NCBI GenBank assembly: GCA_022562275.1 | Contig: JADFPP010000029.1 | Span: forward strand, 1-35,005 | Direction of reading: 5' to 3' | Length of the DNA: 35,005 nt | DNA from: Bacteroidota bacterium | GTDB lineage: Bacteria; Bacteroidota; Ignavibacteria; Ignavibacteriales; Ignavibacteriaceae | In this document: piece after piece, positions 16,453-35,005 of the stretch | Layout: the number at the start of each line of letters is the position of its first letter | Position numbering within the stretch: the stretch's first letter is position 1 | Notes under the pieces: generated by a model | Seen by the model: only the letters and a program-made list of their open reading frames with translations | What the model was told of the DNA's origin: nothing | The model's database searches: none | Program-made: the position numbers and the translations under genes

Positions 16453-16472
16453 TAACAAACAAAATATTTTTA

Positions 16473-16562
16473 AGCCGTTAGGGGTGTTAGCCCAAGCCAT
16501 GGGATGACTGAGATAATACCCTTTAACCTGATCTGGATAATGCCAGCGTAGGGAAACGGGCT
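16473..16562 (+). ncRNA. TPP riboswitch (THI element) aptamer
   Basis: The conserved parts of the thiamine pyrophosphate aptamer appear in order: GGGGTG (16481-16486), CTGAGATAATACCC (16508-16521), AACCTGATCTGGATAATGCC (16525-16544) and GCGTAGGGAA (16546-16555). The P1 stem is closed by AGCCGTT (16473-16479) with AACGGGCT (16555-16562). This is a direct TPP sensor. It controls the receptor, thiamine pyrophosphokinase and symporter genes that follow. Confidence 0.96.
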
Positions 16563-16633
16563 AAAATTGTGTATGTAAGAATAATTAAGATTTTAGCCGT
16601 TTCTCCGAAGTAATACTTCGGACACCAACGGCT
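16555..16633 (+). promoter_or_regulatory. Riboswitch expression platform with alternative hairpins
   Basis: AACGGGCTAAAAT (16555-16567), the 3' side of aptamer P1, can instead pair with ATTTTAGCCGTT (16590-16601), with one bulged G. The second partner also contains AGCCGTT (16595-16601), which can pair with AACGGCT (16627-16633) around an inner hairpin CCGAAGT/ACTTCGG (16605-16621). The P1 and AAAAT helices are mutually exclusive, and so are the AAAAT helix and the downstream hairpin. With TPP bound, P1 holds AACGGGCT and the downstream hairpin can form. Without TPP, the middle helix blocks it. No strong T-run follows the last stem, so termination, or an effect on the nearby GGAGG at 16648-16652, are both possible. 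Confidence 0.7.
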
Positions 16634-16658
16634 GTTATAGTTTAAATGGAGGAATGCT

Positions 16659-19163: not shown

Positions 19164-19173
19164 TTATCAAGAT

Positions 19174-19206
19174 AGATATGCCAGATTTTTAAAATCTGGC
19201 ATATCT
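19174..19206. repeat. Perfect 16-bp inverted repeat between receptor and thiN
   Basis: AGATATGCCAGATTTT (19174-19189) is followed by one T and its exact inverse, ending at 19206. It lies in the 72-bp gap inside the thiamine operon. The stem would be very stable, but no T-run follows. It could be a dispersed palindromic repeat, a partial attenuator, or an mRNA-processing signal that lowers kinase and symporter expression relative to the receptor. Confidence 0.75.
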
Positions 19207-19235
19207 AAGCCCTAATAAATTAGAGAGAATACAAT

Positions 19236-19898
19236 TTGAAAAAATGCATAATACTTGCAAATGGCAAATCACCCCGAAAAAGTGTAATCACATTCTTCCA
19301 AAAGAATGGGTTTGATACAATAATTTGCGCAGATGGTGGTGCAGACTCTGCTTTGAGATTGGGTTTAACTCCTGATTTTATTATCGGTGATCTTGATTCA
19401 ATAAGTAAAGAAGCAATTAAAAAATTCAAAAGCACCTCAAAGATTTTGCAGTATAAAAGACAAAACGATACCGATGTTGAAAAGTGTTTGAAGTTTGCAA
19501 TAAAAAATAAATTTGATGAAGCATTATTAATTGGTGTAACGGGTAACAGGTTAGATCACACAATATGCAACCTTGGAATTGTATTAAAGTTTTTCAGCAA
19601 AATAAAACTCTCATTAGTGGCTGAGAATTCTTATCTCAAACCTTATACTGGAGATTTTCGTTTAAAAACACAAAAAGGTGAAATTATTTCACTTTATGGT
19701 TTTGATAAAAAAACTAAAATAACTTCCAAAGGATTAAAGTATTCGTTAAAAAATATTTCACTTCCTTTTGGTGAAAAAGAAAGTACAAGCAACATATCAA
19801 CATCAGGTATTGTTCAACTTAAAATTAAAAATGGGATTATATTTGTTATCAGGGATTTTAACTTTATAAAAAAATATGATCTCTTTCAGTTCGATTGA
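19236..19898 (+). CDS. thiN: Thiamine pyrophosphokinase
   Basis: The 220-residue enzyme converts thiamine and ATP to TPP and AMP. Family motifs appear in order: CADGGAD (about 30-36), IGDLDSIS (about 49-56), QNDTDVEKCL (about 76-85) and GVTGNRLDH (about 101-109). These form the ATP- and metal-binding site. The C-terminal beta domain (about 140-215), which binds thiamine, is present, with TSNISTSG near 187. The start is TTG, preceded by GAGAGA. The 3' end overlaps the symporter gene by 23 bp, so the two are translationally linked. It lets the cell make cofactor directly from imported thiamine, which in turn is the riboswitch ligand. Confidence 0.95.
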   Translation: MKKCIILANGKSPRKSVITFFQKNGFDTIICADGGADSALRLGLTPDFIIGDLDSISKEAIKKFKSTSKILQYKRQNDTDVEKCLKFAIKNKFDEALLIGVTGNRLDHTICNLGIVLKFFSKIKLSLVAENSYLKPYTGDFRLKTQKGEIISLYGFDKKTKITSKGLKYSLKNISLPFGEKESTSNISTSGIVQLKIKNGIIFVIRDFNFIKKYDLFQFD

Positions 19899-21303
19899 TA
19901 TTGTTATAATTCTTACCTTCTTTTCTTCAATTTTGTTTATTGGATTCTATACAGGGAGAAAAACCGGTTCGGAGGCAAATGATTACTTGCTGAGTGGAAG
20001 AAAAGTCGGATTGTTTCTCTTTGTGCTTACCACCGTTTCAACATGGTACGGCGGCATACTTGGAGTTGGTGAATTTACTTATCGTTACGGAGTAGTTAGC
20101 TGGATAACACAAGGACTGCCCTATTACATATTTGCTTTTCTGTTTGCCATTTTCTTTGCTAAAAAAATCCACAGTGCTTCTCTCTTTACAATTCCGGATA
20201 AGTTAACTGAAGTTTACGGAAAGAAGGTAGGTTTGCTTTCGGCTGTTATAGTATTTGTTTTAGTATCACCCGCTCCTTACCTGTTAATGACGGCAGGACT
20301 TCTCTCTTTACTTTTTGATATCAGTATTTTTCCTGCTTTGATTATTGCACTCATATTATCAATAGCGTATTTGATCAAAGGAGGTTTCCGTGCGAATATT
20401 TATGCAGATGCGTTGCAGTTCTTTGTTATGTTTGCCGGATTTATTTTAATAGTAATTTTTTCAGTCGATTCTTTTGGTGATGTTTCATTTCTATCTCAAA
20501 ATTTACCGAAAGATCATTTAACATTAACGGGAAACACCTCAATCACTTTTATTATAGTTTGGTTTTTAATTGCTTTATGGACATTTGCCGATCCTGGATT
20601 TCATCAAAGATGTTATGCAGCAAAATCCGGCAATGTTGCAGTAAAAGGAATAATCATCTCAATTTTCTTTTGGGCTTTGTTTGATTTTCTAACAACAACC
20701 ACAGGACTTTTTTCCAAAGCCGTAATACCTAATCTCGATAATCCTATTCTCGCATTTCCGTTATTGGCTGAAAAGGTATTACCATCAGGAGTGAAGGGAA
20801 TCTTTTATGCTGCATTGTTTGCAACTATTCTTTCTACGTTAAACAGCTTTTTATTCTTAAGCGGAACAACTATTGGAAGAGATTTTATATATCGGGGCGT
20901 AGTCCCGCTGAGCGGGACGAAGCCTGATATGTCCAAACCTGGTGATGAAAGCAAACTAAAAAACTATACAATAATCGGATTGATCATTTCAGGAATACTT
21001 GCAATAGTCCTTGCATTACTTATTCCATCCGTAATTGAAATATGGTACACGATAGGTTCACTTCTTATTCCTGCAATTATACTTCCGGTTATTAGCGCTT
21101 ACTATCCAAAAATAAGGATTGAGAATAATCTTGTTTTAATTGAAATGATTACCGCCATTACGTTAAGCAGCATTTGGCTTTTTATAAGAAATGAATTTGC
21201 AAGCGTCTCTATTCTTAACGAAGTTGAACCGATGTTAGTGGGGATGGTTGTTGCTTTTCTAATCCATCTTATTTCTCTTGCTATTATAAAATTAAAAATC
21301 TAA
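19876..21303 (+). CDS. Sodium:solute symporter family transporter, predicted thiamine or precursor uptake
   Basis: This 475-residue inner-membrane protein has about 12-13 hydrophobic helices spread along its length. It is of the SSS/SSF type, with the typical N-terminal GRKTGSEANDYLLSGRK loop (about 27-43) and TVSTWYGGILGVGEF (about 53-67). Members import vitamins, sugars or amino acids with Na+. It overlaps thiN by 23 bp under a TPP riboswitch, so thiamine or a precursor (HMP, thiazole) is the likely substrate. SSS members have been predicted in this role (ThiV), where many Bacteroidota use PnuT. A hydrophilic loop near residues 340-360 (YRGVVPLSGTKPDMSK) is encoded by a palindromic DNA repeat and is probably an insertion. 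Confidence 0.88.
   Translation: MISFSSIDIVIILTFFSSILFIGFYTGRKTGSEANDYLLSGRKVGLFLFVLTTVSTWYGGILGVGEFTYRYGVVSWITQGLPYYIFAFLFAIFFAKKIHSASLFTIPDKLTEVYGKKVGLLSAVIVFVLVSPAPYLLMTAGLLSLLFDISIFPALIIALILSIAYLIKGGFRANIYADALQFFVMFAGFILIVIFSVDSFGDVSFLSQNLPKDHLTLTGNTSITFIIVWFLIALWTFADPGFHQRCYAAKSGNVAVKGIIISIFFWALFDFLTTTTGLFSKAVIPNLDNPILAFPLLAEKVLPSGVKGIFYAALFATILSTLNSFLFLSGTTIGRDFIYRGVVPLSGTKPDMSKPGDESKLKNYTIIGLIISGILAIVLALLIPSVIEIWYTIGSLLIPAIILPVISAYYPKIRIENNLVLIEMITAITLSSIWLFIRNEFASVSILNEVEPMLVGMVVAFLIHLISLAIIKLKI
20894..20923. repeat. REP-like palindrome inserted in-frame in the symporter gene
   Basis: GTCCCGC (20902-20908), TGA, GCGGGAC (20912-20918) form a perfect 7-bp hairpin, flanked by GGGGCGTA and GAAGCC, which extend it imperfectly. 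It is far more GC-rich than the surrounding gene. It is translated as part of a polar loop, and the reading frame is preserved on both sides. Confidence 0.7.
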
Positions 21304-21352: not shown

Positions 21353-21928
21353 ATGCTTCGTCAAATAATTTATAGTTCAATTCTTTTCATCTTCTTGTTT
21401 ACTTCTTCAAATTACTCACAATGGTTTTGGCAGAATCCGTTGCCGCAGGGAAATAATTTAAGTGATATTTATGTGTTTGATGAGAACAAAGCTATTGCTG
21501 TTGGCGCTATAGGTACTGTTATAAAAACTACAGACGGCGGAACGAGTTGGAATTCTCAAACAAGTGGAACGACAGTGTTGTTGGAATCAGTCCATTTCAC
21601 AGACAATAATACAGGATCAGAGATTGTTGAAGCTGCTGTTGATTGGCTTGAAGGGCAAATAAATATAGATGCAGAGATATTAGAGTTAAAATGTACTAAC
21701 AGATATAGTCCCGGTAACTGCGAATGGAATGTTTCTGACCAACATAAACTTTTTTCCTTTTTTCCCGATAACTTTTGTGGAATTGAAATTACTGATTCTG
21801 CTCGAATGACTACGATAAAATTTATGAGTGGGATAATTGGTTTAAGTGAAAATGTAAAGAAGAAAACAGATACATGTAACATATGTTCCATGGTGAATTT
21901 CTATATAAGATTGCAGGAGTATGAATAA
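21353..21928 (+). CDS. Chimeric ORF: YCF48-like secreted N-terminus fused to a methionine-synthase activation-domain C-terminus
   Basis: Residues 1-88 are the start of a secreted YCF48/BNR-type protein: signal peptide (IIYSSILFIFLFTSS), QWFWQNPLPQGNNL, and the repeat AVGAIGTVIKTTDGGTSW. At about residue 88 (nucleotide ~21615) the character changes abruptly. SEIVEAAVDWLEGQ, NRYSPGNCEWNVSDQHKLFS and SGIIGLSENVKKK match the C-terminal half of small proteins related to the MetH vitamin B12-dependent activation domain, ending in a Cys-rich tail (CNICSM). Both parents are truncated: no further YCF48 blades, and no N-terminal part of the activation protein. A deletion or recombination joining two genes in-frame is the simplest account. 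A product would be exported, where an activation domain has no known use, so it is probably non-functional. Confidence 0.7.
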   Translation: MLRQIIYSSILFIFLFTSSNYSQWFWQNPLPQGNNLSDIYVFDENKAIAVGAIGTVIKTTDGGTSWNSQTSGTTVLLESVHFTDNNTGSEIVEAAVDWLEGQINIDAEILELKCTNRYSPGNCEWNVSDQHKLFSFFPDNFCGIEITDSARMTTIKFMSGIIGLSENVKKKTDTCNICSMVNFYIRLQEYE

Positions 21929-21931
21929 GAA

Positions 21932-23248
21932 ATGTTTTCGGATAACCAACTTGCGGATCTAAAACATCGGGCTATTGAGGTACTTAAATTAAACAATCAT
22001 AAACACTTCACTAAACCATCTTCAAAACTATATCCCCACCAGTGGAACTGGGACTCAGCATTTATTGCTATTGGATTATCTCACATCGACCAAGAACGAG
22101 CACAAAAGGAAATATATTCATTGTTAAATGGGCAATGGACTAATGGGATGCTCCCTCATATAATTTACTCTCAAAATAATAATGATTATTTGCCAAACTT
22201 AGATTTTTGGGAATCAAAAAATATTGAAAATTCACCTGCGAATATCAGTACGTCTGGTATAACTCAGCCTCCTGTTTTAACTTTTGCTGCATTGAACGTC
22301 TATGAAAATTCAAAAGATAAATACAACGCTCAAAAATTTTTAAATAATATCTATCCCAAACTTCTTTCTTACCATAGATTCTTACATGAAGATAGAGACT
22401 TAGTTGGAGATGGCTTAATATGTATTTTACATCCCTGGGAAAGTGGTTTAGATAACTCTCCTCGCTGGGATAAGATTTTGCAAAATATTCAAAGTAAAAA
22501 TCTTAGCAGAATCAATCGTATCGATAATAAGTTAATAGCAAAACATCAAAGACCAACCGACAAAGACTATGAGCTATACTTTTTTATTGCCGAAAAATTA
22601 AAAGCACAGGACTTCCAGATTAATAATTTTCTAAATCTGCCTTTTGCTGTAAAAGATATAATGTTTAATTCACTAGCTTTACTGTCTCTTGAATCGTTGA
22701 TACATATTTGTGAATTAATCCAACAAGATTCATCGTTACTAAATAAATGGTACAACAATCTCAGCAATGCAATAATTACAAAACTTTGGAGTGAAGAGAA
22801 TAATCAGTTTTGTGATTGGGATATTATTTCAGACAAAGTAATTGATAAGCTAACCATTGCTAATTGTATCCCTCTTATTTTGAATACATTAGCAAAAGAA
22901 CAAATTGAATCAATTGTTAAGCTTGTAAAAAAGAATGGTGAATTCTGGAGTGAAACTGGATTCCCATTATCATCAATTTCATTAACATCCCCAGAATTCA
23001 ATTCTCAGAATTATTGGCGTGGTCCTGTGTGGATAAATATGAATTGGCTAATTATTCAAGGTCTTGAAAAACATGAATTTAATGAGTTGGCAATTGATTT
23101 ATCCTTTGAGACAATTCGTTTAATATCGGAAAGCGGATTTTACGAATATTTTGATCCACTTACCGGCGAAGGATGCGGCTCGCAAAATTTTTCATGGACT
23201 GCTGCATTAATTATTGATATTATAACTAAACTTCAAAAAAAACTTTAA
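21932..23248 (+). CDS. GH63 / mannosylglycerate hydrolase-like glycoside hydrolase
   Basis: The 438-residue protein is an (alpha/alpha)6-barrel glycosidase related to bacterial mannosylglycerate hydrolases and other GH63 enzymes. Diagnostic segments are HQWNWDSAFIAIGL (about 36-49), GQWTNGMLPHIIY (about 67), STSGITQPPVL (about 106), LHPWESGLDNSPRW (about 165) and YWRGPVWINMNWLI (about 353). FDPLTGEGCGSQNFSWTAA is at about 408-426. The Asp in GLDNSPRW and the Glu in the YEYF segment are the expected acid/base positions of the family. No signal peptide is seen, so it acts in the cytoplasm. It begins 3 bp after the chimeric ORF and ends 1 bp before a convergent pseudogene. The ABC and regulator genes downstream suggest it hydrolyses an imported glycoside, possibly mannosyl- or glucosylglycerate. 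Confidence 0.85.
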   Translation: MFSDNQLADLKHRAIEVLKLNNHKHFTKPSSKLYPHQWNWDSAFIAIGLSHIDQERAQKEIYSLLNGQWTNGMLPHIIYSQNNNDYLPNLDFWESKNIENSPANISTSGITQPPVLTFAALNVYENSKDKYNAQKFLNNIYPKLLSYHRFLHEDRDLVGDGLICILHPWESGLDNSPRWDKILQNIQSKNLSRINRIDNKLIAKHQRPTDKDYELYFFIAEKLKAQDFQINNFLNLPFAVKDIMFNSLALLSLESLIHICELIQQDSSLLNKWYNNLSNAIITKLWSEENNQFCDWDIISDKVIDKLTIANCIPLILNTLAKEQIESIVKLVKKNGEFWSETGFPLSSISLTSPEFNSQNYWRGPVWINMNWLIIQGLEKHEFNELAIDLSFETIRLISESGFYEYFDPLTGEGCGSQNFSWTAALIIDIITKLQKKL

Positions 23249-23755: not shown

Positions 23756-24493
23756 TTGAATCTTACAATCGATCATAATTCAGCAATTCCTTTACACTCT
23801 CAGGTTGAACAAATACTTCGGGAGCTAATACAACAACCGGAATATCGTAACGGCAAGCTGTTTCCAAAGGAAGTTAACCTTGCTAAAAGATTAGGTGTTT
23901 CCAGAAATACCGTTCGGCATGCTGCAAACAAGCTAGTACTGGAAGGACACCTATTACGAAAGAAAGGTGTTGGGACAAAAGTAATCAACAAAACAGTTAC
24001 AACTAAATTGGATTCCTGGTTCAGCTTTGCACATGAAATGCACGAGAAAGGGATACAATTTAAAACATGGGAAATCTCATCCGAGTGGGTTTTACCTGAT
24101 CGGGAAGTAGCTCAATTTATTGGAATTTCTAGGAACAAAAAAGTGCTTAAGATGTGCAGACTTAGAGGTGTTGGTCATGGACCTGTAGTTTATTTTGTCT
24201 CATACTTTCATCCGAGAGTTGGGTTAACGGGTAACGAAGATTTTTCTAAACCGCTTTATGAAATGTTAGATAAAGAATATCATACAGTGGTTGCGATTTC
24301 AAAAGAAGAGATCAGCGTTATTAAATCTGATAAACTTGTAGCAGGAAAATTAAAATTAAGAAAAGGCTCTCCGATATTATTAAGAAAAAGATTAGTTTAT
24401 GATCCCGGTGAACGTCCGGTCGAATTTAACCTTGGATTCTATAACCCGGATAGTTTTACATACTCGATAGAAATTAGAAGAGAGGGATATTAA
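23756..24493 (+). CDS. GntR-family transcriptional regulator, HutC/UTRA type
   Basis: The 245-residue protein has a winged helix-turn-helix (about residues 10-80) with SQVEQILRELI, then LAKRLGVSRNTVRHAANKL as the DNA-recognition helix, and KKGVGTKV in the wing. A UTRA ligand-binding domain follows (about 95-240), with RLRGVGHGPVVYFVSYFHP and the usual PILLRKRLVYD near the end. UTRA regulators bind small sugars, often phosphorylated. It is the first gene of a run of sugar-transport genes and has a palindrome in its promoter, so it likely represses the cassette until the imported sugar or its derivative is present. The start is TTG; its ribosome site is weak. Confidence 0.9.
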   Translation: MNLTIDHNSAIPLHSQVEQILRELIQQPEYRNGKLFPKEVNLAKRLGVSRNTVRHAANKLVLEGHLLRKKGVGTKVINKTVTTKLDSWFSFAHEMHEKGIQFKTWEISSEWVLPDREVAQFIGISRNKKVLKMCRLRGVGHGPVVYFVSYFHPRVGLTGNEDFSKPLYEMLDKEYHTVVAISKEEISVIKSDKLVAGKLKLRKGSPILLRKRLVYDPGERPVEFNLGFYNPDSFTYSIEIRREGY

Positions 24494-24539
24494 TATTAAA
24501 AAGCAGATAAAAAATTCAAAATTATTTATTGTTAGGTAA

Positions 24540-25874
24540 GTGAGAAAGCATATAGCAAAAATTTTACTCCTTCCCCTTGCAGCATATTTAATGTATGCAC
24601 TGTTCGCCTCACCGCATACTGTGGTGGATGATGGAAAAATACACGTCAGATATTGGTTTGTTTCGGGACCAGAGGAAGTAATCCCGTATCGCGTAACTCA
24701 ATTCAATAAAATGCATGATGATATTTTTGTTGATGCAACACCTATCCCATGGAATGAACACGAAAAAAAGGTTCTTACTGCAATTCTTAGTGGTAACCCG
24801 CCCGATGTAGTAAGCTTAATTGCACCAGTGCAGCAATGGGCTTCCAGAATGTCACTAAGACCTCTCGATAAATTAATTGAGCAAGACGATTTCGACACAT
24901 CATATGTGTTCCCTGCTTTGTGGGAAGAAGTTAATTACGAAGGACACATTTTTGCAATTCCAACACATACGGCTTCGTATGCATTCTTTTATAATAAAAA
25001 ATTATTCAGAGAAGCCGGTCTCGATCCTGAAAATCCTCCGAATACCTGGGATGAGGTAAGAGGGTATTCAAAAATACTGACCAGGATGGAAAATGAAGAT
25101 TACACTCAAATAGGTTTTATACCTGTCTACGGAAATCTTCAAGTATCTGTTTTATTAGCTAATGAACTTGGCGCTAAGTTTTTATCAGAGGATGGTAAAA
25201 CAGTTCATCTGGACAATGAACAAATGGTAAAGAGTCTCGAATGGATTCTGAACTATTATAGTGATTATGATTTTGATAAATTAATTTCATTTCAATCCGG
25301 TTTCGGTTATGCAGATCAACATGGATTTCTGGCAGAAAAGGTTGCTATGATGATCCTGGATCATACGTTTTTAGATGGAATAGATATTTACAAACCAGAA
25401 TTAGATTTTGGTGTTTCAGCTATACCCTCGTTTGAAGGTTATGAAACATCATCATCAACGGGTAACTGGTGGATGGCAATGCCTAGGGGTGCAAAAAATG
25501 TTAAGGCAGCGTGGGAGTTTATGCAATTTGCTGTTAGTTACGAGGTGCAGGTAAAAGAAGCTACCTTAATGAAACAGAGGCTGATGCCCGCAAATATAAA
25601 TGCGGCAAAAGATACAGCGTTAACGAACAATAAAAAATTCTACGATGTACTTATAGAGCAGATGCAATATGCTAAAACTCCATCAATTGTTCCTCTCGTT
25701 AACGGTACTTTTTGGAGAGAATTTACTTTTGCCCAGGAGAGGGTCATCCGTCATATTCAACCACCCCGGCAATCACTTGCACAAGGCAACAAAGTTATTC
25801 AAGCCGAACTGATCAGGGCAAAAGAATATGATATTTATGTGAGGCAGAATATGGAGCTTGAAGAATATCAATGA
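24540..25874 (+). CDS. ABC transporter sugar-binding protein (family 1), membrane-anchored
   Basis: The 444-residue solute-binding protein has the family-1 pattern: RYWFVSGPEEVIPYRVTQFN (about 38-57), PPDVVSLIAP (about 87-96), PTHTASYAFFYNKKLFREAG (about 141-160) and STGNWWMAMPRGAKNVKAAW (about 304-323). These proteins capture oligosaccharides or glycosides in the periplasm. The N-terminus is basic and then hydrophobic (ILLLPLAAYLMYALFAS), without a lipobox Cys, so it is either anchored by this helix or cleaved. The start is GTG, 46 bp after gntR. It overlaps the first permease by 4 bp (ATGA). Trp-rich segments suit a sugar ligand; the ligand itself is unknown. Confidence 0.9.
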   Translation: MRKHIAKILLLPLAAYLMYALFASPHTVVDDGKIHVRYWFVSGPEEVIPYRVTQFNKMHDDIFVDATPIPWNEHEKKVLTAILSGNPPDVVSLIAPVQQWASRMSLRPLDKLIEQDDFDTSYVFPALWEEVNYEGHIFAIPTHTASYAFFYNKKLFREAGLDPENPPNTWDEVRGYSKILTRMENEDYTQIGFIPVYGNLQVSVLLANELGAKFLSEDGKTVHLDNEQMVKSLEWILNYYSDYDFDKLISFQSGFGYADQHGFLAEKVAMMILDHTFLDGIDIYKPELDFGVSAIPSFEGYETSSSTGNWWMAMPRGAKNVKAAWEFMQFAVSYEVQVKEATLMKQRLMPANINAAKDTALTNNKKFYDVLIEQMQYAKTPSIVPLVNGTFWREFTFAQERVIRHIQPPRQSLAQGNKVIQAELIRAKEYDIYVRQNMELEEYQ

Positions 25875-26791
25875 CGAATATTCTCGAATATATTAAACAT
25901 CCACTCAAAAGAAGACAGGCCTTGGCGGGTTATTTATTTATCTCCCCATGGATCATAGGTTTTCTTGTATTTGGTATTTATCCTATTTGCATGTCCGTCT
26001 ACTATAGCCTCTGTCAATATGATGTGTTAAGAATCCCACAATTCATTGGCTTTAGGAATTACAGCGACCTGCTTTTTAACGATAATTACTTTTGGGGATC
26101 AATTTGGAATACACTCTTCTTTACAGTTATTCGGGTACCACTTGTAATTATTGGTTCACTGTTATTAGCAGTATTAGTAAACAATGCAATTAAGGGTGTA
26201 AAAATTTTCAGAACGATCTATTTTATTCCCTCAATTATTACAGGGGTAATTCTTTCTTCTCTTTGGTTGTGGATGTTAAATCCTCAGTACGGTTTAATTA
26301 ATTCAATGCTGGCATATATTGGAATTGACGGACCTCTTTGGTTGAATGATCCAAATTGGTCAAAGCCATCAATAATTATGATGAGTCTTTGGTCAATCGG
26401 TGGCGTTAGAATGCTTGTATTCCTTGCAGCACTTCAAAGTGTACCTCAGCATTTGTATGAATCTGTTGAGCTTGAAGGCGGCAACTGGTGGCATAAATTC
26501 AAACACATTACGCTGCCATTAATTTCGCCCATAATATTTTTATGGTCGATATTGGAAGTGATTGTCTCAATGCAAGTATTTATAGAGGCATATATAATGA
26601 CCAAGGGTGGTCCGCTTAACTCAACCCTGTTTTACAATTTGTATTTATACAACAAAGCATTTGACGATTTTGAAATGGGGTATGCATCGGCGATGGCGTG
26701 GATATTATTTATAATTACTATGATCATTACCGTAATACAGTTCAAAGGCAGTAAACGATGGGTTTACTACGAAGGTGAGGGGGCAAAGTAA
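25871..26791 (+). CDS. ABC sugar transporter permease, MalF-like
   Basis: This 306-residue inner-membrane permease is of the carbohydrate-uptake-1 class. It has six predicted helices: the first near residues 20-45 (GYLFISPWIIGFLVFGIYPI), others around 75-100, 115-135, 160-180, 210-235 and 275-295. The cytoplasmic EAA loop that docks to the ATPase is seen as YESVELEGGNWWHKFKHITL (about 195-214). It pairs with the MalG-like permease 10 bp downstream to form the channel. It overlaps the binding-protein gene by 4 bp, so their translation is coupled. Confidence 0.92.
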   Translation: MTNILEYIKHPLKRRQALAGYLFISPWIIGFLVFGIYPICMSVYYSLCQYDVLRIPQFIGFRNYSDLLFNDNYFWGSIWNTLFFTVIRVPLVIIGSLLLAVLVNNAIKGVKIFRTIYFIPSIITGVILSSLWLWMLNPQYGLINSMLAYIGIDGPLWLNDPNWSKPSIIMMSLWSIGGVRMLVFLAALQSVPQHLYESVELEGGNWWHKFKHITLPLISPIIFLWSILEVIVSMQVFIEAYIMTKGGPLNSTLFYNLYLYNKAFDDFEMGYASAMAWILFIITMIITVIQFKGSKRWVYYEGEGAK

Positions 26792-26801
26792 TAGAATTGT
26801 A

Positions 26802-27626
26802 ATGACCCAAAAAAAGTTAAAAAATATAATGATATTCTCTCTTCTTACTCTTTTAGCGGTAATGTTTATCATTCCGTTTCTCTGGATATTATCAACATCT
26901 CTAAAACCGGAATCAGCAGTGTTTTCATTTCAATGGCTGCCTGAAACATGGAAATTTGATAATTATCTGAAAGTGTTTGAGAAAATTCCTTTTCTTCTAT
27001 ATATGAAAAATTCGATTGTAATTTCACTCATTACAATAATCGGTACTGTACTTTCAAGTTCGATTGTTGCTTATGCTTTTGGATGCTTGGAATGGCCCGG
27101 AAGAAACACTATTTTCATTTTTGTCATTGCCACAATGATGCTACCCTTGCAAGTTATTATGATTCCATTGTTTATCATGTTCAAGGAACTTGGCTGGTTA
27201 AATACTATCAAGCCATTAACTATTCCTGCATTCTTTGGTGGCGGCGCATTCAATATATTTTTATTAAGACAATTTTTTAAGTCGATTCCAAAAAGCTTAC
27301 TTGATGCAGCAAGGATTGACGGTTGTTCAGAGTTCCGTATCTATTGGTCTATTGTAATACCATTGGCAAAACCGGCATTGGCTACCGTAGCTATATTAAC
27401 TTTTATGTTTACGTGGAATGACTTTTTAGGACCGTTGATTTATTTATCGGAAAAAGCACAAGGAACTTTAGCTTTGGGTATTGCTCAATATGCAGGACAA
27501 ATGAATCCTGAGTATTCGGTTTTGATGGCAGCTTCAGTTTTAATGATGCTCCCAGTCATAATAATATTTTTCTTGTTCCAGAGATACTTTATTCAAGCAT
27601 TTACTATGAGTGGAATTAAAGAGTAA
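26802..27626 (+). CDS. ABC sugar transporter permease, MalG-like
   Basis: The 274-residue second permease has six helices, the first at about 10-32 (IFSLLTLLAVMFIIPFLWIL) followed by STSLKPESAVFSF, the usual MalG N-terminal signature. The EAA loop is LLDAARIDGCSEFRIYWSIV at about 165-184. I place the start at ATG 26802, 10 bp after the preceding stop; an in-frame GTG at 26775 would add nine residues that overlap the upstream gene and look unnatural. No ATP-binding subunit follows, so this transporter must borrow an ATPase encoded elsewhere, as many sugar ABC systems do. Confidence 0.92.
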   Translation: MTQKKLKNIMIFSLLTLLAVMFIIPFLWILSTSLKPESAVFSFQWLPETWKFDNYLKVFEKIPFLLYMKNSIVISLITIIGTVLSSSIVAYAFGCLEWPGRNTIFIFVIATMMLPLQVIMIPLFIMFKELGWLNTIKPLTIPAFFGGGAFNIFLLRQFFKSIPKSLLDAARIDGCSEFRIYWSIVIPLAKPALATVAILTFMFTWNDFLGPLIYLSEKAQGTLALGIAQYAGQMNPEYSVLMAASVLMMLPVIIIFFLFQRYFIQAFTMSGIKE

Positions 27627-27667
27627 TGAGAAGAAAAAACATAATTCTATTTAATGATGGTGGGAAG

Positions 27668-30640
27668 ATGAAATCTTGTGTCTCTTCAATAATTAAATTA
27701 TCTATAATTTTGTTATTTTCAATTTCATTCCACACTTTTGCCGGTTCACACGGTAAAATAAAAGGAAGTGTAATTGACAAAGCTACCGGAGAACCTATAC
27801 CCGGAGTAAACGTGCTTGTGATGGGCTCAACACTCGGAGCAGCCGCTGATGTTAACGGTGACTATTTCATTTTTCAGGTTCCTCCTGGCGAGTACGAATT
27901 GAAATTTTCAATGATTGGTTATCAATCCATTACTTTTAAGAACGTAAAAGTTATGGCTGATCTTACAACAACAATTGACACTGAACTCCAGGACCAGACA
28001 ATCGAACTGGAGGAACAAGTGATTGTTTCTGCTAAGCGGCAGGTTGTACGGAAAGATATTACCTCAAGTATTCAAATTCTTGATTTAGAGAATTTAGAAG
28101 CGTACCCGGTTATCAGTGCCATTGATGCTGTGGTGCTTCAGACCGGGGTTTATCTCGATCCAATTCCGGTTGCGGGAGGCTTAGGATCTGCAGGAAAAGG
28201 TGAAATAAGATATTCAATTAGAGGTGGTGAGCAAATTCAAATTGCCTGGTACCTGGATGGAACAAGAACATCGACCTTAGTAGCCGGCAGAGTTGATTGG
28301 GGAAGCGCTTTTACAAATGTAAATATAAATTCTGTTCAGGAAATTCAAGTTAATACCGGTGGATTTCCTGCAGAATATGGAAATGTGCAAGCTGCAATTA
28401 TTAATACAGTTACAAGAAGCGGAACCGATGATTATCACGGTTCAGTAGAATATATTTATGGAATACCGGGGCAGCATCATTTCGGAAATTATTTGTTCGA
28501 TCAAAGCACTCAGAAAGAATTTATCGATAACACGTTACCTGATGGTTCTTTGGATCCCAATTGGTGGACACCCTTCAGACAAAACCAGGTATATGATTAC
28601 ACAACGATCCCGGATAATACACTTTACTTAAGTTTTAATGGACCTATTCCGTTTGTATTAATTGATGGTTTACCAATAAGGTTTTTTCTTTCTTCCAAAA
28701 TTGATCAAAAGGCATATGTGTTACCGCATCCAAGAGATTCCCGCAACAGCGAGAACTTTTTCGCAAAGTTTTCTTACGATCGTCCAGGGATGAGTCTGAG
28801 ATTAGGTGGATTTTATGATCACGATGCTCATACCACGTTACAAGAAAACGGAGACTTTACTAATCAAGCAAAGTTCTACCGTGGTTGGGGTTCTGTGACT
28901 GATAAATATACCTATGAAGCGAATTTACAATGGACCCATGTGTTAAACCCGCGTCTCTTTTACGATTTAAAGTTAAGTTCATTCTTCGTGAATTTTATAG
29001 AAGGGACAAGCGAACATTTTGTTGAAGGAAAAAGTGAAAATCCAACTTTGTTCGGATTCCAACGCTACGACGGATTTGAGAATGAACCGTTTGATCAATA
29101 TACACCCTCTTTGCAAGGTGATTACTTTACAGGGGATGTATCCTTAGTAGGAAGTATGAACTGGCAAATTGATAATGCGAACTTGATAAAGTCGGGTTTT
29201 GAACTCCGCTATAACACTTACGATGAGAGAAAAAATTATCGCTTTCCTTCATTTACATCGGATCCACAGTACTGGATTAACAAAGGCTTAGGAGAAAGTT
29301 TCAATCCATTACAAATCTCAGTGTACTTGCAGGATAAAATGGAATTTGAAAGTATGGTGCTGAACATCGGTGTTAGATTCGATTACTTTAATCCAAATAT
29401 AAATTGGTTCGATCAAACAAATTTGTTCAATCCTTCAATCGATCCGCTATATGATCCAAGTGCAGACCCGGATGGGAACTTTATCGATTCATCCGGAAGG
29501 TTTAAATATTCGTTTGATAATGTTCTTGCACAACCCAGATCGAGTGCAAGAAGTTATAATTTTATCAGTCCCCGAATCGGTGTTTCATTTCCCATAACTG
29601 AAAATACTCTTCTTCATTTTAATTATGGGCATTATATTCAAATGCCGCCTGTAGATCAATTGTACGAGTTTATTTATTTTCGTCCTGTTTATATTGTTGA
29701 AGGGATGATTGAAAACAATACCGATTACTTTCCTTCAACCGATGGGGATCCGGAGAGAGTTGTTGCTTACACCACCGAACCATTGAAACCCGGTAAGACA
29801 ATAATGTTCGAAGTCGGTGTGAAACATAATTTCTGGGATTTTGCTGTATTAGATGTGACGGCATTTTATAAGGACTTTTTCGATCAAACACAGGAAAGGA
29901 TTGGACTATTTGATCATTTTGTACATGGATATGATCCATTTAGAGGTGAAATTACACCTAATGTTTTTTATTCTGCATATTTAACTGGTGATTATGCTGA
30001 TGCAAGGGGGTTTGAAACCACGTTGCGCTCTTTATTTAGTAGAAATTTTCTGTTCGATATAAATTATAGTTTTTCTACTTCAACTCAAGGAAGGTCAACA
30101 CCACGCAGAGTTTTTATTGATCAGGATGGTACAACAACTTATGAGTGGGATATACAAGTAAATAAACGTATTGGAATCGAGAAAAGTTTTAGCAGACCTC
30201 ACATTGTCCGTGCTAATTTTATGCTAAGTTATCCGGAAAATTGGAGTTCCGGTATTGCAGGTACGATATTCGAAAACACCAGTATCAGTTTTCTTTACCA
30301 ATACATAAGCGGTCAGGCATTTACATATTTACAGCCGGACGACCCGCCTGATACGTATAATAATCACAGATTCCCTGCAACACAGTTTGTAAACCTCCGG
30401 TTTGATAAGTTGTTCAACTTATTCGGCACGCAAACACTCGATTTATTTATTCAAGTGACAAATCTCTTTGATAAAAAGAACCTGCGATCATACGGAGATG
30501 TAATCTTTGATGCAGAAGCGACGAAGAAATTTGTTGAGGAAGGTATAATTAGTACAGTTGATGGAGCAGGTTATGATATTAGCTGGCAAACATATTATGA
30601 TCGGAGAAGGATCTGGTTAGGCGCGAAGTACAATTTTTAA
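27668..30640 (+). CDS. TonB-dependent receptor with carboxypeptidase-regulatory-like domain
   Basis: This is a 990-residue outer-membrane receptor. I choose ATG 27668, which follows GGTGGG and gives a clean signal peptide (KLSIILLFSISFHTFA); an in-frame ATG at 27626 overlaps the permease stop and adds 14 polar residues. A beta-sandwich domain follows (GSVIDKATGEPIPGVNVLV), then a plug domain (about 125-260) with YSIRGGEQIQIAWYLDGT and GGFPAEYGNVQAAIINTVT. The barrel runs to RIWLGAKYNF. It resembles SusC-type importers, but no SusD gene is adjacent. Its place after sugar ABC permeases implies TonB-driven uptake of the same carbohydrate. Confidence 0.92.
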   Translation: MKSCVSSIIKLSIILLFSISFHTFAGSHGKIKGSVIDKATGEPIPGVNVLVMGSTLGAAADVNGDYFIFQVPPGEYELKFSMIGYQSITFKNVKVMADLTTTIDTELQDQTIELEEQVIVSAKRQVVRKDITSSIQILDLENLEAYPVISAIDAVVLQTGVYLDPIPVAGGLGSAGKGEIRYSIRGGEQIQIAWYLDGTRTSTLVAGRVDWGSAFTNVNINSVQEIQVNTGGFPAEYGNVQAAIINTVTRSGTDDYHGSVEYIYGIPGQHHFGNYLFDQSTQKEFIDNTLPDGSLDPNWWTPFRQNQVYDYTTIPDNTLYLSFNGPIPFVLIDGLPIRFFLSSKIDQKAYVLPHPRDSRNSENFFAKFSYDRPGMSLRLGGFYDHDAHTTLQENGDFTNQAKFYRGWGSVTDKYTYEANLQWTHVLNPRLFYDLKLSSFFVNFIEGTSEHFVEGKSENPTLFGFQRYDGFENEPFDQYTPSLQGDYFTGDVSLVGSMNWQIDNANLIKSGFELRYNTYDERKNYRFPSFTSDPQYWINKGLGESFNPLQISVYLQDKMEFESMVLNIGVRFDYFNPNINWFDQTNLFNPSIDPLYDPSADPDGNFIDSSGRFKYSFDNVLAQPRSSARSYNFISPRIGVSFPITENTLLHFNYGHYIQMPPVDQLYEFIYFRPVYIVEGMIENNTDYFPSTDGDPERVVAYTTEPLKPGKTIMFEVGVKHNFWDFAVLDVTAFYKDFFDQTQERIGLFDHFVHGYDPFRGEITPNVFYSAYLTGDYADARGFETTLRSLFSRNFLFDINYSFSTSTQGRSTPRRVFIDQDGTTTYEWDIQVNKRIGIEKSFSRPHIVRANFMLSYPENWSSGIAGTIFENTSISFLYQYISGQAFTYLQPDDPPDTYNNHRFPATQFVNLRFDKLFNLFGTQTLDLFIQVTNLFDKKNLRSYGDVIFDAEATKKFVEEGIISTVDGAGYDISWQTYYDRRRIWLGAKYNF

Positions 30641-30653
30641 TCAACAATAAAAT

Positions 30654-32486
30654 ATGAAAAATAAAATAATATACATATCGTTTTGTTTTATACTGGTCTT
30701 TACGCAATCCCACTTTGCTCAGGTAAGAATCGCTGATTTTATGATCCATGATAGAGGTAATCTTTGGGAAACAATGAAGGATGATGGAACAATTGGTCCT
30801 GCAAATCCAACTAATAGATTCGAAACATATCCTTCCATGGATTGGCCCGGAGGTCCGGCAAAATTGGCTAAAGACGATCAAAGATCATATTCATTTGCAT
30901 CGGGATTTTGGCTTGGAGGTAAGCGAGGAGATGGCACAACTTTTTTAATTGAGAATGGACCATTAAACTTTGTGGATTTAGGCACATTTAATGATCTCAT
31001 TATGGAAGAAAATTTTGTGGGCTCAAATAATTATAATCCTAACGAGCCTGAGCAAAAGATTATTGCTGAATGGACAAACAGTGAAAATATTACAATAAAA
31101 CGTACTAGCAATGTTTGGAGTTTTAATAATCTTAATAACTTCGTAATAATTGATTATGAAATTACCAGCAATAAAAGTGAAACCTTAACAGATGTATATG
31201 TTGGCTTTCCAAGTCTGATTCGCCCCAGCTACCAGGATTTCGTTGTTCACAACGGATGGGGCGATGATTTTAACCGCACTGATGAGTTAGTTGATTACGA
31301 TACAACAAACGGTATCCTCTATGCTTATGATGATACACCAAATTTTAGCCTGCCAAATGATGTTGGTAATTACTGGGATTTTAATGATTTGAACGAGATG
31401 AGGACTCCGGGTTATGCAGGTTATAAAATTCTGTACGCAGATGAAACAACAGATCAGCAGCTTCAGCCTGCAACTGTATTTTTTGCACAGTTATTAAATA
31501 ATCAGGATCAATTATCAACTGTTAGCAATAGTCAGGAAAATGTTTATAATATACTTTCCGGAGAAGATCAAAGTCTTCAAGTTGATAATACTACACATAT
31601 AACTCCTTTTATGCTTTTAGGTGTCGGTCCCTACAATTTAGCTCCCGGCGCAACTATTAGAATATCAGTTGTTGAAGCCGTTAATGGTCTTCCGATCGAA
31701 GAGGCAATAAAAGGATTAGAAGTACAACCGGATCTACCTGCGGGATTAGATTCTCTGAGAAACACTATCGCAAACGCTCAAATTCTTTTTGATAACAATT
31801 TTCAGTTAACAAGCATTCCTCCTCCCTCACCTAAGATTGACATTATACCAATCCCGAAAGATCAAACAATAACAATTTTGTGGGACCCCCTAGATCAAAC
31901 CTGGATCGATCCCATTAGCGGTATTACTGAAATTAGTGAATTTAAAATTTACAGAGCCGACAGAAGTTTTATTGGTCCATATAAGTTTCTTAAAAGGATC
32001 AGACCAGGACGAGATACTGACCGGACAAGGTTTTTTGATGAAGATATTAATAAATGGGTGTATGAAGATCAAAGCATAAGCCTGGGTGCCGGGTATTTTT
32101 ATACTGTAACTTCATTAGACGCTGAAGGTGATGAAAGCTGGTTTACAAACCGCAACACCGAACCTGTGTTTGCTGCCAGTGATGCAGCCCCTGATGCTCT
32201 TAACGTTAGAGTCTTTCCAAATCCGTTTAAGGAAATTTCAGGCTTTCCAACTTCCGGGTCTGAAGATTCAATCGTTTGGATAAACCTTCCGGGACGCTGC
32301 ACAATTAGAATATATACGAGCAGTGGTGAACTTGTTAAAACTATGGAACATGATAATCCAGACCTCGGTGAAGAAGTTTGGGATCAACTATCCGACGCCA
32401 GGCAGCAAACAGCACCTGGTATTTACTTTTGGACTGTAGTATCTGCCGTCGGTAATGCTAAAGGCACTTTATTAATACTTAAATAA
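30654..32486 (+). CDS. Secreted surface protein with type IX secretion C-terminal sorting domain
   Basis: The 610-residue protein has a signal peptide at about residues 1-22 (IIYISFCFILVFTQSHFAQ). The N-terminal 350 residues are a beta-rich domain I cannot name (IADFMIHDRGNLWETMKDDG, SFASGFWLGGKRGDG). A fibronectin-III-like stretch lies at about 395-505 (ITILWDPLDQTW, YFYTVTSLDAEGDE). The last 80 residues are a T9SS type A sorting domain: VRVFPNPF, then IRIYTSSGELVKT, and APGIYFWTVVSA ending LLILK. It is therefore exported across the outer membrane and attached to the surface. It is 13 bp after the receptor, where SusD would normally sit, so a substrate-capture role is plausible but inferred. 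Confidence 0.85.
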   Translation: MKNKIIYISFCFILVFTQSHFAQVRIADFMIHDRGNLWETMKDDGTIGPANPTNRFETYPSMDWPGGPAKLAKDDQRSYSFASGFWLGGKRGDGTTFLIENGPLNFVDLGTFNDLIMEENFVGSNNYNPNEPEQKIIAEWTNSENITIKRTSNVWSFNNLNNFVIIDYEITSNKSETLTDVYVGFPSLIRPSYQDFVVHNGWGDDFNRTDELVDYDTTNGILYAYDDTPNFSLPNDVGNYWDFNDLNEMRTPGYAGYKILYADETTDQQLQPATVFFAQLLNNQDQLSTVSNSQENVYNILSGEDQSLQVDNTTHITPFMLLGVGPYNLAPGATIRISVVEAVNGLPIEEAIKGLEVQPDLPAGLDSLRNTIANAQILFDNNFQLTSIPPPSPKIDIIPIPKDQTITILWDPLDQTWIDPISGITEISEFKIYRADRSFIGPYKFLKRIRPGRDTDRTRFFDEDINKWVYEDQSISLGAGYFYTVTSLDAEGDESWFTNRNTEPVFAASDAAPDALNVRVFPNPFKEISGFPTSGSEDSIVWINLPGRCTIRIYTSSGELVKTMEHDNPDLGEEVWDQLSDARQQTAPGIYFWTVVSAVGNAKGTLLILK

Positions 32487-32498
32487 AATCAGATTCAA

Positions 32499-33497
32499 AT
32501 GAAACAATTTCTATATATCGTATTAGTTTTTTCATTATTATTTACATCGAATGTTTTTGCACAGTTCGATTTTGGATTTGATTTTTCTAAAGCAGGTTCT
32601 GCTGGATTACAATCATTAAAAATTGAGTCAGGTGCAAGAGAAAGAGCTCTGGGTGGTGCTGTATCGAGTATTGTTAACGATGCTAACGCGATTTTTTGGA
32701 ATGTTGCAGGAATTGGTTATGTAAAGGATTTTCAACTATTTGCGTCACATTCAAATTGGCTGGTTGATAGTAAGCATATTACATTTGCCGCTGCTTACCC
32801 GGTAGGGCCAGTCGTAATTGGTCTTAGTTTAATGTCTATGCAAATTAATGATTTTGAGGAAACAACTGCACTTTTTCCGCAAGGTACCGGAAGAATGGTG
32901 AGTGCAGGAGATATCTCGATAGGGATTGGTGTAGCCAGGCAGTTTACTGATAAGCTTTTAATAGGTGGACAGATAAAGTATGTTATAGAAACACTTGATG
33001 ATAAATCGTTCGATAATATTTTATTTGACATCGGAACAATTTATAACACCGGATGGCGAAATTTGCGCCTCGGTTTTGCGTTACTGCATTTTGGACCAGA
33101 TATGAATTTCATCAATAAAACAGTTAGAACTCCACTACTTTTTAGGGTGAGTGCTGCTGACGATATTATTTCTTCAGAGAACTTTTTGGCTACCTTGATG
33201 ATTGAACTTGTACATCCAACAGACAACGACGAATGGCTTAGCATAGGGAGTGAGTTTGTTTTACTTAATACTTTGAAATTAAGAGCAGGATATAGATTCG
33301 TTAATGATGAAGGCAACTCTAGAGTCGATATTGATATAGGCACCATAGGTAAAAATGATGTGGGCAACTTAAGCTTTGGAGCAGGTGTCCAGTCTCCAGT
33401 ACTCGGTATTTCGAATATTAAAGTAGATTATGCATTTACATCCTATACGCAGGTGTTTAATGATATCCATACAATTACAGTGGGTATCGAATTTTAA
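32499..33497 (+). CDS. PorV/PorQ-like outer-membrane protein
   Basis: The 332-residue protein has a signal peptide (YIVLVFSLLFTSNVFAQ) and then the PorV/PorQ family N-terminus: KIESGARERALGGAVSSIVN and ANAIFWNVAGIGYVKDFQLF. The remainder is a series of beta strands ending FNDIHTITVGIEF, as in a 14-strand FadL-like barrel. PorV shuttles T9SS cargo to the surface attachment complex. Many paralogues lie beside single cargo or transport genes. It lies 12 bp after a T9SS-sorted protein, which makes a dedicated partner role likely. It is shorter than PorV itself, so the call is family level. Confidence 0.85.
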   Translation: MKQFLYIVLVFSLLFTSNVFAQFDFGFDFSKAGSAGLQSLKIESGARERALGGAVSSIVNDANAIFWNVAGIGYVKDFQLFASHSNWLVDSKHITFAAAYPVGPVVIGLSLMSMQINDFEETTALFPQGTGRMVSAGDISIGIGVARQFTDKLLIGGQIKYVIETLDDKSFDNILFDIGTIYNTGWRNLRLGFALLHFGPDMNFINKTVRTPLLFRVSAADDIISSENFLATLMIELVHPTDNDEWLSIGSEFVLLNTLKLRAGYRFVNDEGNSRVDIDIGTIGKNDVGNLSFGAGVQSPVLGISNIKVDYAFTSYTQVFNDIHTITVGIEF

Positions 33498-33514
33498 ATT
33501 AAAATATTCTTAAA

Positions 33515-35005
33515 ATGTTCAAAAGGAAAAATCAGTTAATAAAAATTTTACTTCTGGTGATAATGAGTTTTCTTGTAACGCAGTGTAAATTTACATTTAT
33601 TAATCAGCCGAAACAGGCTGAACCAAACGAAACAATCAAGATAACGCTTCAGATTGAGGATACATTTGTACCCGAACCCAATCCGCATAAAGGTGTGATC
33701 TGTATTCTAACACCTGCCGATTGGCAGTATGTTTCGGGCAACTATAGTTTCTCTTTAGGGGAAGGAATTATAGAACTATCGGAAGAATGGGCAGATTCTG
33801 CAAGTAGATGTTTTCCACCCGACGATTTTGGAGAGAACATGAAATGGATCGGATTGATATCCGATTCAGGGTTCTCTTATACCGATCCTATTGCTATCGA
33901 TGTCTCCATCTATCTGAAAGTAGGTGAGATGGAAGGCTGCTTTAATCTTGCGTATCTCACAACAAAAGCAACTGGAGGATTAATTTGTTCAGGTAATCCG
34001 GGTTGGGTTGCATTCTCATATCCCCACAGAATTGGGGTGCCGGATTCTGCACTTTGTGAACCTGAACTTACGGCACTACCCGCACCGGAGTGGGACGACT
34101 TATTTACCAGAACAAATGGCTGGACAGGTGCTGATGGTATTTATTCAATTCCTCTTTCTGGATTAGAAATACCTCAAACTGGAACTTCGGCATTAGATGA
34201 AATCTTCGTGTTCAGCGATACATTTATTGGTGAGGTTGATACAAATAATCAGCGCCAGAATGCAGATCTAATTAATAACACTTTAGGATTTATGAAGGGA
34301 CATAGACCGATAGAAGAAAATATTAACTTCTTTTGGGAAACAAATAACCAAAACGAACCGGAAGCAGTATTTATACCTAACACTCCTGAATCGAAGCCAG
34401 GTGATTGGTATTGGTTGATGGATGGTATTGCTCTAAATGATAAAGTTTATGTGTACGCCTTGAGACTTGAAAGAGGAGATGGTGGATTTTTTAATTTCAG
34501 ACTAATTGGTGTTAACCTTATTAGTTTTGATGCTCAACCGGGAGGTTCTATATCAAATGTTGTTCAAATGGATACACCATTGTTGTACTTAAATGAATCT
34601 GAAAACATAAATATTGCATTCGGACAAGCAATAATGCCGATGACTGAGGAATCTGGTAACCCCGGAAGTGATGGATATATCTATATATACGGTCCGAAGA
34701 ACAGTGCATCAGGTAAGGAACTAACTGTTGGAAGATTTTTACCTCAGAATATAGAAATCTTTTCCGAATATGAATTTTGGAACGGCATACAATGGACTAA
34801 TAATATTGAAGACGTTCAGATAATAAACAATAATACATCACAAGAACTCAGTGTTACCCCTCTGGCTGATGGTTCGTTTCTATTGGTTTATCTATCAGGT
34901 AGCACTGTATTTATCAGCGTTGGAGAATCACCGGTGGGTCCATTTGCATATCCTGAGGGAATATATAACTGTCCTGAACCACAACAGATTCCAAGTACAT
35001 TTGTA
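33515..35005 (+). CDS. Partial lipoprotein with probable beta-propeller (DUF4185/DUF5005-like)
   Basis: The frame is open from ATG 33515 to the window edge, 497 codons, with the 3' end missing. The N-terminus is basic, then hydrophobic (LIKILLLVIMSFLVTQC), with a Cys at about residue 24 that could be lipidated, although Gln at -1 is unusual. Residues about 35-180 form a beta-rich domain with several cysteines. From about 195 onward the pattern resembles five-bladed beta-propellers related to glycosidases: DEIFVFSDTFIG, WYWLMDGIALNDKVYVYALR, DGYIYIYGP, then GPFAYPEGIYNCPE. Such domains bind or cleave glycans. As the last visible gene of the operon it may be a surface glycan-binding protein or an enzyme. 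The family call is tentative. Confidence 0.75.
   Translation, partial: MFKRKNQLIKILLLVIMSFLVTQCKFTFINQPKQAEPNETIKITLQIEDTFVPEPNPHKGVICILTPADWQYVSGNYSFSLGEGIIELSEEWADSASRCFPPDDFGENMKWIGLISDSGFSYTDPIAIDVSIYLKVGEMEGCFNLAYLTTKATGGLICSGNPGWVAFSYPHRIGVPDSALCEPELTALPAPEWDDLFTRTNGWTGADGIYSIPLSGLEIPQTGTSALDEIFVFSDTFIGEVDTNNQRQNADLINNTLGFMKGHRPIEENINFFWETNNQNEPEAVFIPNTPESKPGDWYWLMDGIALNDKVYVYALRLERGDGGFFNFRLIGVNLISFDAQPGGSISNVVQMDTPLLYLNESENINIAFGQAIMPMTEESGNPGSDGYIYIYGPKNSASGKELTVGRFLPQNIEIFSEYEFWNGIQWTNNIEDVQIINNNTSQELSVTPLADGSFLLVYLSGSTVFISVGESPVGPFAYPEGIYNCPEPQQIPSTFV

Follow-up and report, generated by a model that had tools for sequence, protein, structure and literature searches.

A TonB receptor, a T9SS-sorted surface protein and a PorV-like barrel as a conserved triad and likely alternative to SusC/SusD in an Ignavibacteria glycan-uptake locus

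SusD is regarded as the hallmark of glycan-uptake loci in Bacteroidota, and genomes without it are thus read as poor in such loci. Here we analyse a window of 35,005 nucleotides, the entire contig JADFPP010000029.1 (C14) of a 148-contig draft genome from the class Ignavibacteria (assembly GCA_022562275.1), in which eight open reading frames (ORFs) on the forward strand fill positions 23,756 to 35,005, with the coordinates of an earlier first-pass annotation. Three of them form a triad that consists of a TonB-dependent receptor (TBDR), a surface protein sorted by the type IX secretion system (T9SS), which we call the cargo, and an outer-membrane barrel of the PorV/PorQ family. On balance, we read the locus as one for glycan uptake, with alpha-mannosides as the likeliest substrate, in which this triad is used instead of SusC/SusD.

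The eight genes form the tight pack that the first-pass annotation had described as having gaps of 50 bp or less: from the GntR gene to the last one, which encodes a DUF4961-DUF4185 protein, the intergenic distances are 46, −4, −17, −1, 13, 12 and 17 bp. With the cargo as query, 294 genomes of the class (host included) yielded five other full-length relatives (56–62% identity) and a partial one at a contig end in G015 (63% over 110 residues), and the order from GntR to PorV is identical in all five of these other genomes, with GntR orthologues in the five syntenic loci 59–67% identical. The gene after PorV is the lipoprotein-like one in four of the five, and a GH38-like gene (GH, glycoside hydrolase) stands there in G257. 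Among named genomes, cargo relatives (50–62% identity) were found at 19 loci, which come from Ignavibacteria metagenome-assembled genomes and from records named KSB1, Calditrichia, Neomarinimicrobiota, Balneolaceae and Rhodothermales, these labels being record names under which misbinned contigs are possible; four of the loci (L126, L130, L131 and L134) are the same contigs as L049, L053, L054 and L055. The receptor lies directly upstream of the cargo in 19 of 19, and PorV directly downstream in all 17 whose contig continues past the cargo. At L138, L141 and L142 the ATP-binding cassette (ABC) transporter genes lie behind the triad, with receptor, cargo and PorV still together; as the ABC genes shift position while the triad stays intact, the triad, and not the whole operon, is the conserved unit. 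At L140 (9953–11640) a sequencing error or decay has divided the cargo gene into two ORFs.

The same arrangement recurs among distant relatives. We took 40 consecutive lower-ranked cargo matches (27–39% identical), picked regardless of their neighbours and covering mostly the fibronectin type III (FN3) and C-terminal domain (CTD) part of the protein, and dropped one (L121) that had no ORF. A PorV-family gene directly follows the cargo in 38 of the 39 readable cases, and a TBDR directly precedes it in 34 of the 35 with a readable upstream side, although the receptor is 823 bp away at L120 and its ORF is short (550 residues) at L122. The one exception, L116 (8801–10144), carries a chitinase-like gene between receptor and cargo, a rare insertion that hints at a chitin ligand. 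Outside the class but within the phylum, triads are present in six of six loci, these being the best-scoring ones. Counting from the barrel instead, a TBDR lies at most three genes upstream of 14 of the 20 non-core PorV-family genes above the family cut-off in two complete genomes, and the remaining six resemble three pairs common to both genomes. These counts bear out the proposal that the pair of cargo and barrel is tied to TonB receptors, with exceptions such as the one on host contig C75 given below. The host holds a second triad (L146:4906-12549, contig C143) whose cargo has 1,136 residues and a PorZ-like CTD, and an apparent third is truncated by the start of contig C30. At L176 (8648–18541) a cargo homologue has no adjacent PorV and a receptor–PorV pair follows three genes later, so that the cluster seems rearranged.

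The three genes are also inherited together. Across 58 triads (62 found minus four duplicates), the pairwise distances of receptor, cargo and PorV correlate with r of 0.926, 0.908 and 0.940 (0.926 for receptor and cargo), and the highest value among 2,000 permutations is 0.137. A same-genome comparison covered 29 of these triads, of which 26 came from genomes contributing two or more triads to the set; no triad member had its nearest relative within its own genome. A PorV-like partner dedicated to the cargo, as the first-pass annotation had suggested, is thus supported by co-phylogeny and, across triads as a whole, by the class of the CTD (below).

Neither the window nor the contig that appears to continue it holds a SusD gene. 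The GH38 gene of a relative (query GH38a), searched in the host genome, matches contig C112, whose start is by homology the missing end of the gene truncated at 35,005, including an ordinary T9SS CTD; C112 is placed after the window by this homology, with no overlapping bases between the two contigs. Searches of the host's draft genome for the Pfam domains of SusD, PF07980 and PF14322, gave no match. Within the extent of C112 and the draft genome, a SusD hidden beyond the window can be rejected, and the view that the T9SS protein occupies the place of SusD, with no SusD immediately past 35,005, agrees with the conserved triad and with these negative searches. In the class, PF07980 is present in a minority of genomes (37 of 149), and PF14322 in one of eight checked, Melioribacter roseus (G153), which served as a positive control. 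Its PF14322 gene sits in an operon (L170) that fits the published starch operon of this organism, an assignment made by gene order with locus tags unmatched, and the same genome also carries triads, so that the SusD and triad designs occur side by side. We considered whether the 'SusC, SusD, SusE' of Melioribacter (PMC3534657) might be a misannotated triad, and rejected this because the likely operon, L170, has a true SusD domain (PF14322).

The genes on C112, named mostly by match to genes of the relative G211, extend the locus with GH38, two further DUF4961 proteins with CTDs, a DUF4185 protein and a 689-residue protein without a family, and further on with an esterase, a ROK kinase, a ManA-like protein, an ABC ATPase and a SASA esterase. 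Glycan-degrading enzymes of the locus (GH38, the esterase and the SASA esterase) are thus found on C112 and in relatives. GH38 enzymes are mainly alpha-mannosidases, and GH38, the ROK kinase and the weak ManA match together point to alpha-mannosides, which are probably the substrate. Of the five relatives read, all retain the large GH38 and the ManA-like gene, four the ROK kinase and three a second, cytoplasmic-looking GH38, a degree of conservation that stands against the serious if less favoured candidate, some other glycoside or a glycan containing sugar acids. In favour of that candidate, GHx691 has no family, the match to ManA scores poorly, the host genome yielded a single GH38 gene with the GH38a query, and ROK is missing from the G257 locus. 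Furthermore, enolase-superfamily-like, short-chain dehydrogenase/reductase (SDR) and metallo-beta-lactamase-like genes, labelled by eye, lie divergently upstream at L125, L130 and L137; here and elsewhere, the pectin, SusE, chitinase, enolase-family and SDR labels were read by eye from the sequence and do not come from a family search of the single proteins. A PDB sequence search found no relative of the GHx691 or GH38a profile.

The barrel, labelled PorV/PorQ-like in the first-pass annotation, does pass the cut-off of that family, and it fails the core equivalogs (24.6 against 250 bits for NF033710 and 73.8 against 220 bits for NF033711). Its sole match in a PDB profile search is F. johnsoniae PorV (6h3i_F, E value 3.5 × 10−7), and it has no PorP match at E ≤ 0.01. 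The T9SS core of the host comprises SprA, PorU, core PorV and PorZ, and its best PorV-family match lies on contig C111 beside PorU; in eight genomes checked, PorU with a strong adjacent PorV is present in all eight, PorZ in each, and PorV-family matches number 13 to 29 per genome. The sorting signal proposed for the cargo is divergent: the window protein reaches 12.3 bits with TIGR04183 (cut-off 23), and 17 of 20 orthologue rows match this model at E ≤ 0.1, the window row not being one of them. Its CTD scores 19.1 bits with a PorU model, 17.6 with a generic one and 11.6 with PorZ, which is a near tie, and has no type B match (TIGR04131, E ≤ 1); the L091 cargo has a weak one (13.9 bits, cut-off 35).

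For triads in general the CTD class is more distinct. Among CTD proteins directly before a PorV-family gene, 97 of 107 prefer a PorU/PorZ-type CTD, whereas among those without a following PorV gene 85 of 92 prefer the ordinary type A model and seven the PorU/PorZ type, these being counts of related and not independent proteins, from which those with a truncated C terminus or no next gene were dropped. The generic model was trained on half of 59 motif-chosen sequences, and that half was excluded from the counts. The NCBI models agree with this in part: ten hand-picked triad cargos gave their best E value with PorZ in seven cases, PorU in two (including L120, a near tie by bits) and TIGR04183 in one. 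In 102 of the 108 downstream neighbours of triads (the six longest were scanned separately with Pfam), TIGR04183 matches 35, and PorZ is outside the 25 commonest families. PorU's CTD stays on PorV and PorZ's on PorQ (PMC10202324), and the same paper suggests that cognate PorV-like barrels may shield CTDs from cleavage. In PMC12618676, PorV is stated to serve every type A CTD, and type B cargos to be paired with PorP/SprF shuttles of their own; beside these two schemes, the triads look like a third.

We consider it rather unlikely that the PorV-like protein is a dedicated shuttle only, such that PorU cuts the CTD, the cargo is fixed to lipopolysaccharide and no fixed receptor–cargo complex exists. 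The presence of PorU, core PorV and PorZ in all eight genomes and the ambiguous CTD class of the focal family speak for such a shuttle, but the PorU/PorZ-like CTD found generally in triads is of a type reported to be retained on PorV/PorQ (PMC10202324), and because a core PorV already exists, a PorV for each cargo needs a reason.

The cargo itself belongs to no Pfam or NCBIfam family. It starts with a hydrophobic stretch and an A-Q site whose Q23 is invariant in six orthologues, as read from the sequence. The AlphaFold2 model, made from 20 alignment rows, has a mean predicted local distance difference test (pLDDT) score of 72.7 and predicts in residues 28–387 a beta-sandwich that matches the N-terminal domain of a GH116 enzyme (7w2t_A; VIA-align Z 17.2, 257 residues, 3.8 Å, 9% identity). 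The next fold matches are GH94, GH149, GH161 and GH65 chains and a glucodextranase, which we take to be GH15; the N-terminal domains of all these families have the same predicted fold over roughly 200–270 residues (Z 12–17). Whereas enzymes of the GH116/GH94 type continue into a catalytic domain, the cargo, which is about 10% identical to them, has FN3 and CTD instead: the helical catalytic barrel is absent from the model, the rest of which is mainly FN3 and CTD strands, and its long helices are 354–380 and one at the signal-peptide-like start. No match was found in a PDB sequence search with the cargo profile. A SusD fold for the cargo was rejected, as the model is mostly beta and no SusD-type chain is among the 50 matches listed per fold search, a list that does not exclude a family outside it. 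One listed chain, PDB 6hq8, has a title that reports laminarihexaose at a surface site; this renders glycan binding by such enzymes plausible without locating it in this domain. The loop HNGWGDDFN (residues 199–207), invariant in six orthologues and mostly of low confidence in the model, is a candidate specificity loop.

The receptor does not qualify as SusC/RagA by the model TIGR04056 (65.1 bits, cut-off 368.25). A fold search with its predicted structure (pLDDT 67.7) lists siderophore-type receptors first and a SusC chain at rank 39, which indicates just a TBDR in general. This resemblance, the predicted enzyme-like beta-sandwich without a SusD chain among the listed matches, and locus L212, where receptor and PorV stand together without a cargo between, would suit a cargo that serves beside a lidless receptor as a SusE/SusF-like accessory for grappling glycans, or else as an adhesin, and so is no functional substitute for SusD. 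We find this doubtful, since the position of the cargo between receptor and barrel is nearly constant, cargo and receptor show tight co-phylogeny, and separate DUF4961 proteins are available as accessories.

It is very improbable that the PorV-like barrel is a FadL-type small-molecule channel and that shared regulation alone links the three genes, for although FadL-like barrels do occur near triads (PF03349 in 5 and the BamG family in 9 of the 102 neighbours), the barrel is above the PorV/PorQ cut-off, its PDB match is to PorV alone, and the CTD class of the preceding gene tracks the presence of a PorV-like gene. Just downstream of triads there are further barrels of the PorV family (9 of 102 neighbours) and of the BamG family, the two groups perhaps overlapping in part, and some triads may have two barrels.

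Several findings weigh against reading the triad as a retained, SusCD-like glycan module. In the host, three of seven PorV genes above the cut-off are in triads, one of them truncated by a contig end, the other four being one core PorV and three genes elsewhere, and the cargo homologue at L147 (7463–9583, contig C75) has no adjacent PorV. The trees of the three genes share just 35, 26 and 24 of 55 splits. The cargo model is of moderate quality, with residues 19–81 poorly defined, and the ManA-like protein is below its cut-off (29.6 against 116.2 bits). The focal family departs from the general CTD pattern: it supplies nine of the ten PorV-adjacent CTDs that score best with the generic model (by less than 3 bits in six cases and by 5 to 9 bits in three), this model also comes first for six of 12 focal cargos, and in the two cargo alignments at E ≤ 0.1 TIGR04183 outnumbers PorZ by 10 to 6 of 15 rows and by 17 to 10 of 20. 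The PorU model also matches 15 of the 102 downstream neighbours, and as the host has PorU and PorZ, cleavage of the CTD and attachment to anionic lipopolysaccharide (A-LPS) are possible. Lastly, many paralogous triads have no obvious adjacent glycan enzymes, and TIG and NHL proteins are common there.

If the triad does replace SusC/SusD, the surface protein would leave the cell through Sec and then the SprA translocon, and its CTD would be taken up by the cognate PorV-like barrel and kept there, as PorU is on PorV and PorZ on PorQ. Such retention would keep the beta-sandwich domain next to the receptor on the outside of the cell, in a position from which it might capture an oligosaccharide and hand it over, with TonB powering inward transport. 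GH38, which has a signal-peptide-like start, could trim the oligosaccharide in the periplasm; the ABC transporter would import the products, and the ROK kinase and the ManA-like isomerase would feed them into glycolysis.

The glycan role assigned in the first-pass annotation suits the focal locus and some paralogues, in that other triads adjoin chondroitinase-B-like, GH18, GH20 and GH-like genes, but does not extend to every triad. Carbohydrate enzymes are just part of the neighbours, so that the idea of triads as glycan modules throughout is unsupported; given this mixture of glycan enzymes, TIG and NHL proteins, the module is probably not restricted to glycans and serves large or scarce ligands in general. 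Tentatively, and with less confidence than for the locus itself, we propose that in Ignavibacteria and their relatives the triad may be a general counterpart of SusCD, with a private PorV-type barrel that never releases its uncleaved PorU/PorZ-type CTD. If so, many nutrient transporters would be assembled by way of the T9SS, a role as transporter builder that joins two fields, and outside Bacteroidia it would no longer hold that a single PorV serves all type A cargo. A simple signature would then list uptake loci in Ignavibacteria and probably in KSB1, Calditrichia, Neomarinimicrobiota and Rhodothermia. The corresponding sequence rule would class as retained any protein whose PorU/PorZ-type CTD has a PorV gene after it, and as handled by the core system any with an ordinary type A CTD and no such gene.

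Table 1 Genes and cargo domains at positions 23,756 to 35,005 of the window
Feature	Coordinates	Strand	Basis
GntR/UTRA-family transcription regulator	23756..24493	+	PF00392 57 bits, PF07702 90.1 bits
ABC sugar-type solute-binding protein (SBP_bac_1)	24540..25874	+	PF01547 111.7 bits
ABC permease, UgpA-like	25871..26791	+	PF00528 (BPD_transp_1); NF007852 129.6 bits, below cut-off 335
ABC permease, UgpE-like	26775..27626	+	PF00528 (BPD_transp_1); NF008210 134.2 bits, below cut-off 297
TBDR, triad gene 1	27626..30640	+	PF13715, PF07715, PF00593 (CarboxypepD_reg, Plug, barrel)
T9SS-sorted surface protein (cargo), triad gene 2, 610 residues	30654..32486	+	CTD via relatives
Cargo residues 28-387, predicted beta-sandwich and helix, GH116/GH94 N-terminal-like	30735..31814	+	AlphaFold2 model
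Cargo residues 390-490, FN3-like domain	31821..32123	+	Model strands; FN3 chains among Foldseek matches
Cargo residues 517-608, T9SS CTD	32202..32477	+	Profiles, model
PorV/PorQ-family outer-membrane barrel, triad gene 3	32499..33497	+	NF033709 147.3 bits, cut-off 90
DUF4961-DUF4185 lipoprotein-like protein, truncated by contig end	33515..35005	+	Pfam; remainder by homology on C112

The last gene had been described as a probable beta-propeller lipoprotein. The gene is there, but it encodes a truncated DUF4961-DUF4185 protein (DUF4961 25.5 bits, slightly below the cut-off of 27.1; DUF4185 40.0 bits, cut-off 39.5) whose missing end carries, by homology, a T9SS CTD. In the window protein a Q precedes the lipobox-like cysteine, which makes the lipobox doubtful. 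Together with two other DUF4961 proteins (L145:3937-6109 and L069:4251-6302), it combines a lipobox-like cysteine start with an ordinary T9SS CTD end, an unusual double address.

Upstream of the pack, an MGH1-like glycoside hydrolase (21,932–23,248) comes near glucosylglycerate hydrolase (364.6 bits, cut-off 550) and lies outside the conserved block, about 500 bp before GntR. It is preceded by a 191-residue ORF (21,353–21,928) with a Ycf48-like start (23 bits), the later part of which resembles an unrelated or decayed reading frame. Positions 16,470–21,303 hold a thiamine pyrophosphate (TPP) riboswitch (70.6 bits) followed by a TonB receptor, a putative thiamine pyrophosphokinase (a label read by eye from the sequence, with no family search) and an SSF symporter. 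This is a thiamine uptake operon, like the comparable one described in Caldithrix (PMC5317091).

A module of receptor, T9SS cargo and PorV was not described in the literature as searched by titles and abstract starts, largely without subscription papers, and its parts are best placed beside four known systems. With the SusC/SusD utilisomes (PMC7618045) the locus shares a TonB receptor with an N-terminal carboxypeptidase-like extension, an adjacently encoded surface partner, nearby glycosidases and several copies per genome, but no SusD was found here, the score of the receptor lies well under the SusC/RagA cut-off, and the partner, predicted to be mostly beta, is a T9SS-exported protein accompanied by a PorV-like barrel of its own. 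In its working the triad would resemble SusCD, but by these features it is not a SusCD system. BtuB–BtuG and XusA–XusB (PMC10404256, PMC13142918) provide a precedent for a TonB receptor with a non-SusD surface partner; whereas those partners are surface lipoproteins, the one here has a T9SS CTD and a dedicated PorV-like protein. Cargos with a type B CTD and their PorP/SprF shuttles (PMC12618676) likewise have the shuttle gene directly downstream and form co-specific pairs, with the differences that the putative shuttle here is of the PorV/PorQ family and that the window cargo has no type B CTD match. Finally, PorU–PorV and PorZ–PorQ (PMC10202324) share with the triads a CTD protein held by a PorV-family barrel, as would apply here, and triad CTDs are generally PorU/PorZ-like; in those pairs the held protein is a part of the secretion machine, whereas here it stands beside a nutrient receptor, in many copies.

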